The notes under the pieces were generated by a model, which saw only the letters and a program-made list of their open reading frames with translations, searched no databases and was not told the DNA's origin. A stretch of DNA of 37,787 bases from Victivallales bacterium (GTDB lineage Bacteria > Verrucomicrobiota > Lentisphaeria > Oligosphaerales > Oligosphaeraceae), in contig JAFZAB010000038.1 of the NCBI GenBank assembly GCA_017548425.1, positions 1-37,787 of the forward strand, written 5' to 3'. Within the stretch, counting starts at the first letter, position 1. Every line of letters begins with the position of its first letter. Shown in pieces: positions 27,583-31,744 of this stretch. The position numbers were made by a program, and so were the translations under genes.

Positions 27583-28614
27583 ATGGATATTGAAGACAAA
27601 ATCATGACATTGGAGCAAGCCGTTGCTTGGCACGGCAAGCTGAAGGCCGAAGGCCGGAAGCTTGTCGCGACGAACGGCGTGTTCGACCTGCTTCATCGCG
27701 GCCATGCGGAATATCTCGCGAAGGCCGCGCAGGCGGGCGACGCGCTGTTGGTGGCCATCAACAGCGACGAATCCGTCCGTCGGATCAAGGGGCCGTCCCG
27801 TCCGATCGTGACGGAGGGCGACCGTGCGTATCTGCTTGCATGCATGTCATTTGTCGATGCCGTCGTCATCTTTGCTGAAGATACGGCGACGAATACGCTG
27901 GCGGCCGTCCGCCCGGAGATCTACGCGAAGGGAGGCGACTACACGGAGGAGACGCTGGTTCGCGAAGAGTATTTTGTCATGAAAGAGTTTGTGGAGAAGT
28001 TCGTGTTCATTCCGTTTGTGGCGGGTCGTTCGACGACTTCGACGATCCGGAAGGTCAACGGCGGGGCGATGGGGGAATCAGCGGAAGCCACAGACAGTGG
28101 TTTGAATCCGAAACTGAATCTTCTGTATGGCCGTCGCAGCGTGCGGCAATACCAGAAACGTCCCGTTGGGGATGATTTGGTTCAGGAGCTTCTTAAGGCG
28201 GCGATGGCGGCGCCATCTGCCTGCTGCAAGGATCCATGGCATTTCATTGTTTTGAAGAAAGAAGAGACGCGCAGGCAGGTTGCCGCGCTGTTGAAGAACG
28301 GCGGCTTTCTGGCTGACGCTCCGATGGGATTTGTCGTCTGTGGCGACCTGACGAAGGCGCATGGCGGTGAATTGTCGTATCTTCTGCAGGATTGTTCGGC
28401 GGCCACGGAGAATCTTCTTCTGGCGGCGCATGGACTTTCCCTAGGAGGATGTTGGCTTGGTGTCCATCCACGTTTGGAGCGTGTGGAGGGGATTCGGCGG
28501 CTGCTGGATCTTCCAGACACGATGATTCCTGTCGCGGCGGTCGCCATTGGGTGGCCCGCGCAGGATTTGAAGATAAGAACGCGTTTCCGCAAGGATGCGG
28601 TCACGGAGCGATAA
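27583..28614 (+). CDS. Fusion: heptose-phosphate adenylyltransferase (HldE C-domain type) with nitroreductase
   Basis: 343 residues in one uninterrupted frame. Residues 1-160 are an HldE/RfaE-type cytidylyltransferase-fold domain: NGVFDLLHRGHAEYL (31-45, nucleotide-binding HRGH at 38-41), AKGGDYTEE and the RSTTSTI motif (149-155), expected to make ADP-heptose from heptose-1-phosphate and ATP. Residues 178-343 are a nitroreductase: YGRRSVRQYQKRPV (FMN-phosphate-binding Arg), MAAPSACCKDPWHF, LAAHGLSLGGCWLGVHP. Linker 161-177 is short and acidic. An internal ATG (codon 163) lacks a Shine-Dalgarno. The kinase half of HldE is not in the window. No family of this architecture is known to me. Ties to the GT9 heptosyltransferase at 15516 for LPS biosynthesis. 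Confidence 0.85.
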   Translation: MDIEDKIMTLEQAVAWHGKLKAEGRKLVATNGVFDLLHRGHAEYLAKAAQAGDALLVAINSDESVRRIKGPSRPIVTEGDRAYLLACMSFVDAVVIFAEDTATNTLAAVRPEIYAKGGDYTEETLVREEYFVMKEFVEKFVFIPFVAGRSTTSTIRKVNGGAMGESAEATDSGLNPKLNLLYGRRSVRQYQKRPVGDDLVQELLKAAMAAPSACCKDPWHFIVLKKEETRRQVAALLKNGGFLADAPMGFVVCGDLTKAHGGELSYLLQDCSAATENLLLAAHGLSLGGCWLGVHPRLERVEGIRRLLDLPDTMIPVAAVAIGWPAQDLKIRTRFRKDAVTER

Positions 28615-28630
28615 TACAGTGGAGAAGAAG

Positions 28631-31600
28631 ATGCAGGGAATGTCCGACACATTGTTAGGAGGACGCTACAAAGTGATCGAAACGTTTGATCGCGGGTTAA
28701 AATGCCGCGATGAGCAAACGAACACGTTTGTCTGGCTGAAGCCTCTGCCGGAAGAAATTACCAATGATTCGGTATTGCTGGCGGATGCCATGCGTCGTTG
28801 TGAAACGTTGAAGAACATTCAGCATGCAGGGATTGCGAAGATGCTGGATGTACTGTCGGCGGAGAACGGCAAGACATACATGGTCATCGAGTATGTGGAA
28901 GGCATCACGTTGCGGCGTTGGATGCAGGAGCATCGTGAGGGCGGAATCGTTCCTCCAAAATTCGCCATACCGGTACTGAAGCTACTGGCCAGCGCGATTG
29001 ATGCGGCCCATGCGGCGAATGAAATCCATCGCCATCTGATGCCGGAATGCATCATGGTTGACGAAAAGGGACAGCCAAAGATTTTGAATCTGGGCATTCC
29101 GTATGTGGGCAGCGACAATGCCTGGATGCTGGAGCCGTGGAAGAGCACAGGCTGGGAGGCGTTCTATCGAGCTCCTGAGCAGTGGCGTGGCCAGATTTGC
29201 ACGACATGGACGGATTTGTACGCTTTGGGGTGCATCGCCTACGAAATGCTTTCCGGCCATGTGCCGTTCGACATTCCGGATATCAATCTGCTGCATGGCG
29301 CGGTTCTGACTGAAATGCCTCCGGCCATTATCAGCCTGGCTGTCGCCGCGCAGGGGACGATTGCCAGAAGTCTTGCCAAGCGTGGCAGCGAACGTTTCAC
29401 CAGCTGCGAAGATTATATTCGTTCATTGTCTTTTGAGACGGCGCAGACGACGACGGTTCCCAAAACAGTCACCGGCAATGTGCCGAAGGTCAATCAGCCG
29501 TATGCCGTTCCGGATATGCCGAACGGTGTATGGACGGCGACGACGGCCGCCGCCGCTGTCGCAGCCACTTCCAATACGCGGAATACGGGAACCATCAGAG
29601 GGATTACAAGAGGCATCCCGATCGCTCTTCCCAATATGCCGAACACTGGTACGGTCAGAAACATCACAGGGCCTCTCAAGACCGGCCCCGTAACTGGCCG
29701 CTATGGCAAAACAGGCCCGATCACAGGCAAATATACGAGAACCCATACCCATATTCTTTCGAACGCCAACGAAGAAATCTACGGTGTGTGGAGCGATGAA
29801 TCCAAAGGGGTGAAAAGCGTTCTGTTCAGGGTTGTCCTTCCCTTGATTCTCATCTCGGTGATTGCGGCGTTGATGTATTATCTCATCGTGAAGCAGGCTG
29901 AGACTTTGGATGAAACGGTCATTCCGCGTTCGGATATCGAACAGTATCAGGATATGACTCCTTTCGACATGTCTAACTTTGGTTCTTCAGAGGAGGAAAA
30001 GGCAGACGAAACCAAGGATGACGAACAAAAGGAGGATTCGGAGAATGACTCTCAGAAGCCTTCGGAAAATTCCTCTGAGAATCAGACGGATGATTCATCC
30101 AAAACAGACAATCAACCTCCAAAAGAAGATGAGAAAAACGATGATTCGAATCAAGAGGTGAAACCAGATGGTGACTCGCCTCATACGGACAAACCGTCTT
30201 CTGATGATGATTCATCGTCGATGAAAAACGACGATGAATCAACGGACGCGAATACCATGACCGCCAATCAGGATGAGACTCCGCAACCGCTGACACCGCA
30301 GGAAGCCACTAGAACAGAAGCTGCAACGGACAATGTCCCCAAGCGTAGTTCGTCAGTTCGTTCAGGCTTTGGAAAGGCTTATATCGAGGCGACCATTCAT
30401 GATAAAACGATCAAAGGCGCGAAATTGACGGTTGAGGAAAAAACATATTGGAATTCCGTGGAGATAGAAGCGTTTGCTCCTGATCTGCACAAAGTGGAAG
30501 TCACGGCGGAATATATTGATGAACACCATGTTTCCTATCGAGGAAAGAAGACATTTACAATTGACTGGGTTGGCAGACAAAAAATTCAAGTCGAGATGGT
30601 AAGGGAAGACGGCGTCGCAAAGATCGTGGCGATAGCGGATGGCAAGCCGCTGGACGGGGCGGATGTCTATATTGATGGACGGTTGTACAAGACACCGAAA
30701 TGTGAAATTGAGGCGACCTTGGGCATTGAGCGGAAAGTCGAAGCCAAGGCGTTTTTCAAGGATGACAAGAAAGGTCTGTTGTTCGGGTCGCAGTCGTTTG
30801 TCATTGACTGGAAAGGGGTGAAGACCATTTATGTGGAGATGAAGGAACGGAAGGCGGTTGCGTCGGCGGAACAGTCGGTCAGGCTTCTGCCGTTGAATGT
30901 TGATGATTTGGCTGATGGTTCAGCGGAAAAAGCCATGGCCGCATCGTATTCGGCTGACGGCGGAAAAGCATCCACCGACCAGAGTTCCGTGCCGAAGGAC
31001 GCAGGAGTCGATGGAATCAACAAGCCGATGTTCATGGAATTGATTTGGGTGGATTCCGGCAGTTTTGAAATGGGCAGCGATTCCAAAGACGCCAAAAAGG
31101 ATGAGAAGCCGCGTCATACCGTGCAGATTTCCAATGGCTTCTGGCTCGGAAAATACGAAGTGACGCAGGAGGAATATTGTGCGATGGCGCGTTATGCGGG
31201 GCTGGATGACGACCATTCGAAATACGTCGGCGCGCGTTTGCCAGTTGATTCGATTACCAAAAAAGAAGCTGAAAAATGGTGTGAAGCCTTGACGCGCAAG
31301 GAGCGCGATGCGGGGCGGTTGCCGTTTGGATACGAATATCGTCTTCCGACGGAGGCTGAATGGGAGTTCGCCGCAAGAGGCGGCCGGAAAAGCCGCGGAT
31401 ATCTGTTCAGCGGCAGCAACAAGCTGATAGATGTCGCTTGGTTTGACGCCAATAGAGGCACTGAAGACGGCACGCGAGAAGTCGGTGGCAAGGAAAAGAA
31501 CGAGCTTGGCTTCTATGACATGAGCGGCAATGTCCGCGAATGGTGCCATGATTTTTACGAAGCCTACTCATTGAAGCCTGTGACGGATCCGATGGGACGC

Positions 31601-31744
31601 GGTAGCAAGGTGATGGCTCGCGGCGGCAGCTGGCGTAACAATACGAACGGCAGCCGTGTGACGGAGCGCGCGAGTTACGAGCCGAACAAAGCGGATGATT
31701 TCATTGGTTTCCGCGTTGCGTTGGCGCCTGTCCTGCCGGAATAA
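28631..31744 (+). CDS. Transmembrane pseudokinase with acidic linker and C-terminal SUMF1/FGE-like domain
   Basis: 1037 residues from the ATG at 28631, chosen for GGAG at 28621-28624 (an earlier ATG at 28595 overlaps the previous gene). Residues 10-270: Ser/Thr-kinase-like fold with Lys37 kept (WLKPL), but no glycine loop, HRD changed to HRH (133-135) and DFG to NLG (153-155), so catalytically dead in appearance; IMVDEKGQPKIL and RAPEQW confirm homology. Residues 280-385: repeated Thr-Gly motifs (NTGTIRG, TGPVTGRYGKTGPITGKY). Residues 398-419: transmembrane helix. Residues 430-575: Asp/Glu/Ser-rich linker. Residues 583-737: two similar beta repeats, each ending FxIDWxGxxxIxVEM. Residues 800-1037: SUMF1-type fold (GSFEMGS, YEVTQEEY, RLPTEAEWEFAARGG, RGGSWRNN, GFRVA) without FGE cysteines. 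Confidence 0.85.
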   Translation: MQGMSDTLLGGRYKVIETFDRGLKCRDEQTNTFVWLKPLPEEITNDSVLLADAMRRCETLKNIQHAGIAKMLDVLSAENGKTYMVIEYVEGITLRRWMQEHREGGIVPPKFAIPVLKLLASAIDAAHAANEIHRHLMPECIMVDEKGQPKILNLGIPYVGSDNAWMLEPWKSTGWEAFYRAPEQWRGQICTTWTDLYALGCIAYEMLSGHVPFDIPDINLLHGAVLTEMPPAIISLAVAAQGTIARSLAKRGSERFTSCEDYIRSLSFETAQTTTVPKTVTGNVPKVNQPYAVPDMPNGVWTATTAAAAVAATSNTRNTGTIRGITRGIPIALPNMPNTGTVRNITGPLKTGPVTGRYGKTGPITGKYTRTHTHILSNANEEIYGVWSDESKGVKSVLFRVVLPLILISVIAALMYYLIVKQAETLDETVIPRSDIEQYQDMTPFDMSNFGSSEEEKADETKDDEQKEDSENDSQKPSENSSENQTDDSSKTDNQPPKEDEKNDDSNQEVKPDGDSPHTDKPSSDDDSSSMKNDDESTDANTMTANQDETPQPLTPQEATRTEAATDNVPKRSSSVRSGFGKAYIEATIHDKTIKGAKLTVEEKTYWNSVEIEAFAPDLHKVEVTAEYIDEHHVSYRGKKTFTIDWVGRQKIQVEMVREDGVAKIVAIADGKPLDGADVYIDGRLYKTPKCEIEATLGIERKVEAKAFFKDDKKGLLFGSQSFVIDWKGVKTIYVEMKERKAVASAEQSVRLLPLNVDDLADGSAEKAMAASYSADGGKASTDQSSVPKDAGVDGINKPMFMELIWVDSGSFEMGSDSKDAKKDEKPRHTVQISNGFWLGKYEVTQEEYCAMARYAGLDDDHSKYVGARLPVDSITKKEAEKWCEALTRKERDAGRLPFGYEYRLPTEAEWEFAARGGRKSRGYLFSGSNKLIDVAWFDANRGTEDGTREVGGKEKNELGFYDMSGNVREWCHDFYEAYSLKPVTDPMGRGSKVMARGGSWRNNTNGSRVTERASYEPNKADDFIGFRVALAPVLPE

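Follow-up and report, generated by a model that had tools for sequence, protein, structure and literature searches.

The window analysed here is a 37,787-nucleotide stretch of contig JAFZAB010000038.1 from an uncultured gut bacterium whose nearest relatives are rumen Victivallales, and carries at 28631-31744 a gene for a predicted membrane-spanning pseudokinase ending in a SUMF1 domain; this and every other feature given by window coordinates lie on the plus strand. The product is 1037 aa long from an ATG at 28631, which is preceded by a Shine-Dalgarno GGAG at 28621-28624, with an alternative in-frame ATG at 28595. Its domain order is a kinase fold, a Thr-rich juxtamembrane region, a transmembrane (TM) helix, an acidic linker, two beta repeats and SUMF1, and it therefore shares the layout of the PVC kinase-TM-SUMF1 family, with the kinase N-terminal, a single TM and SUMF1 C-terminal. 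Pfam, hydropathy and related analyses found no domain beyond kinase and SUMF1, the COG3899 fusion of CP1 pseudokinases being absent. The gene starts 16 nt after an RfaE-domain-II adenylyltransferase fused to a nitroreductase (27583-28614), a fusion kept in all five congeners at 66-92% identity. No operon or partner gene could be linked to the receptor, its neighbours being housekeeping or metabolic. The genome is a metagenome-assembled genome (MAG), 85.8% complete and in 248 contigs, and absences from it are provisional.

The kinase-fold domain spans residues 9-270 (28655-29440) and includes a Pfam Pkinase match at residues 23-215 (E 3e-22, far above chance). Its AF2 model (pLDDT 86, pTM 0.85) has mycobacterial PknA/PknB as best Foldseek matches, and by predicted fold the domain can confidently be placed in the Hanks-type protein kinase superfamily. 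The beta3 lysine, K37 (28739-28741), is kept in all three orthologues described below and in both other pseudokinase-SUMF1 groups. The glycine loop is reduced to the remnant FDRGLKCR (residues 19-26; 28685-28708), with a beta1-beta2 loop five residues shorter than that of active relatives and no GxGxxG. The catalytic loop reads HRHLMPEC (residues 133-140; 29027-29050) where HRDxKxxN is expected, with H135 (29033) in place of the HRD Asp, M137 for the catalytic-loop Lys and C140 for the Mg-binding Asn. The metal-binding motif is NLG (residues 153-155; 29087-29095) instead of DFG, N153 (29087) replacing the Asp, and Trp175 stands where active relatives have the P+1 Thr (SGTRxYxAPEQW). Among the features of an active Ser/Thr kinase, the beta3 Lys is thus present, and the HRD Asp, DFG Asp and glycine loop are missing. 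As loss of either the HRD or the DFG Asp is the usual criterion for a pseudokinase (PMC12599244), and both are lost here, the kinase end is classed as one; from its motifs, it is most likely unable to transfer phosphate and would signal by binding partners instead.

The Thr-rich cytosolic juxtamembrane region (residues 271-395; 29441-29815) contains a conserved PNTGTV[RK]xIT, and leads into the only strong hydrophobic segment, a single TM helix at about residues 396-420 (29816-29890; Kyte-Doolittle 2.67). Beyond it lies an acidic, fast-evolving linker (residues 421-570; 29891-30340) with 45 D/E against 13 K/R, followed by beta repeat 1 (residues 581-656; 30371-30598) and beta repeat 2 (residues 661-737; 30611-30841), which are 35% identical in self-comparison (E 6e-10), show their strands in matching order in the AF2 model, and were found in the receptor orthologues only in a search of 29 genomes. 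A PEGA identity for the repeats was considered and rejected, there being no Pfam match. An earlier sequence-only reading of this stretch had recognised K37, the changes of HRD to HRH and DFG to NLG, the missing glycine loop, the one membrane helix with its very acidic linker and the two beta repeats, and translation, alignment and modelling bear it out on each of these points.

The SUMF1/FGE-fold (C-type-lectin-like) sensor domain occupies residues 803-1030 (31037-31720), matched over its whole length by Pfam FGE-sulfatase (E 1.9e-43, far above chance). The fold is recovered in an AF2 model of the ectodomain (pLDDT 85, pTM 0.67, the lower pTM making the placement of the repeats relative to SUMF1 uncertain), for which Foldseek gave Treponema denticola TvpA and human FGE as closest. 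Structure prediction of both ends, as had been suggested, thus yields the expected folds. There is no Cys in RGGSWRNNTNGSRVTERAS (31619-31675), the region of the FGE catalytic cysteines, and the catalytic pair (C336/C341 of human FGE) was not found, RGGSWRNNTNGSRV being without Cys. A SUMF1 fold lacking these cysteines had been correctly called, and both ends had been thought inactive; motif loss upholds this for the kinase end, but not for SUMF1 as a secondarily inactivated enzyme. Of the 60 SUMF1-like domains compared, drawn from this genome and relatives and including those linked to intact kinases, none has a C-x4-C pair at the catalytic position, so Cys-less SUMF1 is the norm of the clade, uninformative for this protein, and is rejected as the sign of a second dead enzyme. 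By the same pattern, the fold in this clade evidently serves a role other than formylglycine generation. An ungapped count, in which 38 of 51 domains had an equivalent of one catalytic Cys, was discarded because the human FGE alignment puts a 3-residue insertion there; the Cys conserved in those domains is probably not the catalytic one. TvpA is a target of a diversity-generating retroelement, and with an Asn-rich motif its likeness raised the same identity for the receptor, which was rejected for want of a reverse transcriptase gene (PF00078 had no match in the assembly, itself 85.8% complete). Elsewhere in the genus, a frame of at least 1302 aa carries four tandem SUMF1-like domains (L072:1491-5399, G004:C179).

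Orthologues of the receptor were found in two congeneric species, one (G004) 61% identical over its full length and the other (G002) split by a contig break, in the assemblies of uncultured bacterium RUG12186 and of a water-buffalo reticulum MAG assigned to Victivallales. This genome, G002 and G004 carry HRHLMPEC and NLG without a single difference, though with only three orthologues inference at individual residues has little power. The order of adenylyltransferase-nitroreductase gene then receptor is common to the three genomes. The receptor is missing from the two other congener assemblies searched (G001 and G003), where an hldE-like gene is directly followed by other genes with no kinase gene among them; absent from two of five congeners, its function is dispensable within the genus. 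Between orthologues, the kinase domain is 75-77% identical, and dN/dS (NG86) is 0.15-0.16 for it and 0.14-0.16 for the SUMF1 domain, ratios that are approximate at a dS of about 1; the linker is 28-31% identical, with dS saturated. Both ends are clearly under constraint, and equally strongly so. With dN/dS near 0.15 in both, the gene is functional and a pseudogene is rejected.

The suggested search for the same architecture revealed two further conserved pseudokinase-SUMF1 orthogroups in the same three species (this genome, G002 and G004), so motif loss is not unique to the receptor; neither group has a close match in G001 or G003. The C20 type (L060:1586-4543 on contig C20 of this genome, L073 and L112) has HPALKPGC and DYD, and shares the glycine-loop deletion and Asn-to-Cys change with the receptor. 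In the C163 type (L061:1250-4132 on contig C163, L071 and L074), HRN replaces HRD and DFG is intact, the catalytic Asp being the only change. Proteins of the C20 type also bear a long Glu-Ala-Lys coiled-coil stalk, and the gene in this genome comes immediately after an ORF that at its start looks, by eye, like an M50-type membrane peptidase. Active kinase-SUMF1 fusions, which the sequence-only reading had noted in PVC bacteria and myxobacteria, are present in relatives and in this genome itself, where a paralogue with the receptor's domain order, of the kind that reading had proposed looking for, sits on contig C95; another such paralogue is in G004 (C209). In a tree of the kinase domains, the receptor and both other inactive groups are nested (99/98) within a same-family clade of active (KDD-intact) kinase-SUMF1 receptors, a placement stable when long branches were dropped one at a time, and the receptor therefore descends from active kinase-SUMF1 receptors. 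An AU test (p 0.22) neither established nor rejected a single inactive ancestor of the three groups. Outside the genus, the loci surveyed, a sample of best matches rather than a census, include 14 KDD-intact fusions and one inactive (G035); L036 (G035:C12), of another family, has HGN and EPG for HRD and DFG and is apparently an independent pseudokinase. A further degenerate kinase in this genome (L063:1341-4163, contig C8; HGSLTLDG/SCG) is joined to ankyrin repeats and has no SUMF1.

Taken together, the protein is probably a single-pass inner-membrane pseudoreceptor, with an outer SUMF1 ligand sensor and an inner kinase fold that acts as a protein-interaction or allosteric module without phosphotransfer. 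A scaffold or receptor function had been proposed from the sequence, and would be the most economical reading of a membrane-spanning pseudokinase that is real and under selection. Outside the membrane, SUMF1 and the beta repeats would bind a ligand or surface, the signal would pass via the one helix, and the kinase fold would work allosterically or through a bound partner, the likeliest being an active Ser/Thr kinase in the same cell. Alternatively, the Thr-rich juxtamembrane tail may be displayed for phosphorylation and docking, for instance by FHA proteins. The genome has 10 FHA-domain matches, and these proteins are possible phospho-Thr readers, just as the KDD-intact kinases, the same-order paralogue on C95 being one, are possible partners; others could be missed, since the MAG is 85.8% complete. 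Topology and sensing role are read from the families to which the domains belong, and any ligand, partner or direction of effect is conjectural. Against this explanation count the retention of K37 in every member, as it would also fit residual nucleotide binding, the want of a linked partner gene, and the gene's absence from two of the five congeners.

Four other explanations were weighed. The SUMF1 sensor might titrate ligand away from active kinase-SUMF1 receptors, the kinase fold being kept only for dominant-negative heterodimers. Kinases of the PknA/PknB group dimerise through the N-lobe, and both the PknA/PknB-like fold and the active same-order paralogues here (C95) and in G004 (C209) are compatible with such a decoy. 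It is nevertheless unlikely, as the nearest active relatives (C168 and C209) are confined to G004, absent from this genome and G002, and the two beta repeats unique to the receptor mean that its sensing end is not a simple copy of the active ones. Slightly less credible is a non-canonical enzyme, in which K37 and other residues hold a nucleotide for some other transfer reaction, as in SelO (AMPylation) or SidJ (glutamylation). The conservation of K37 across the three orthologues and two other pseudokinase groups, and these precedents (PMC12599244), are set against the loss of both metal-ligand positions (C140, N153), the catalytic Asp, Lys and glycine loop; SelO, unlike the receptor, keeps DYG and an Asn (PMC12599244). 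That SUMF1 alone matters, the kinase fold being an inert cytosolic anchor drifting to loss, would accord with the lost catalytic residues and the gene's absence from two congeners, but is quite improbable given 75-77% identity and a dN/dS of 0.15 in the kinase domain, constraint equal to that on SUMF1, and three pseudokinase orthogroups maintained in parallel. Finally, the gene might encode an active kinase that was misread or misassembled at 29033 or 29087. Sequencing errors there had been named by the sequence-only reading as a potential refutation, and are conceivable for a genome with one MAG assembly only, but this explanation is excluded for practical purposes because orthologues in assemblies of two other species carry identical dead motifs, and the losses extend to the glycine loop, the P+1 Thr and the Lys and Asn of the catalytic loop.

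A bolder extension of the preferred pseudoreceptor reading is that the three co-inherited receptor pseudokinases (this one and the C20 and C163 types) might together make up a layer of sensing independent of phosphorylation, with SUMF1 sensors controlling active kinases via heteromeric pairing, a bacterial parallel to pseudoreceptors like HER3; this is a long shot.

Receptors with the kinase-TM-SUMF1 layout have already been published from PVC bacteria, and in the PVC set SUMF1 ranks third by frequency among the domains partnered with STKs (PMC11032199). The receptor resembles them in its N-terminal Hanks fold, one TM and outer C-terminal SUMF1, and its kinase falls in such a clade, whereas it keeps the Lys without both Asp residues and the glycine loop, and adds an acidic linker and a pair of beta repeats all its own. 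Chlamydial Pkn1, a kinase-DUF323 protein of similar architecture, has been reported to be cytoplasmic and active (PMC1262709). Catalogued families of bacterial pseudokinases comprise ActPs1-3 (including MviN), GLW, CP1, DYD and DLHK, described mostly by sequence and hardly tested (PMC12599244). These too have an STK-derived fold without catalytic motifs, and several are membrane-linked, but their motif replacements differ and a SUMF1 sensor is not described for them in that review: GLW pseudokinases have GLW for HRD where the receptor has HRH, and CP1 pseudokinases are COG3899-fused without a TM, where the receptor has both TM and SUMF1. It mentions neither sulfatase/FGE domains nor Planctomycetes or Lentisphaerae, and a literature search for a pseudokinase with a formylglycine-generating domain found nothing relevant.

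Human SUMF2/pFGE (1y4j), T. denticola TvpA (2y3c) and PorK/GldK share this fold and likewise lack the FGE Cys pair, TvpA being the best sequence and fold match of the receptor's SUMF1 domain, yet none is fused to a kinase. Receptor pseudokinases of the HER3, ROR and PTK7 type, with an outer sensor, one TM and a catalytically impaired kinase fold, offer a works-like analogy only. Both kinase-TM-SUMF1 receptors and bacterial pseudokinases were known already; what is new is the conserved combination of the two. As the genus has a receptor-type pseudokinase together with active receptors related to it in sequence, and keeps three inactive groups side by side under selection, the role of a kinase fold without catalysis in a bacterial receptor becomes directly testable.
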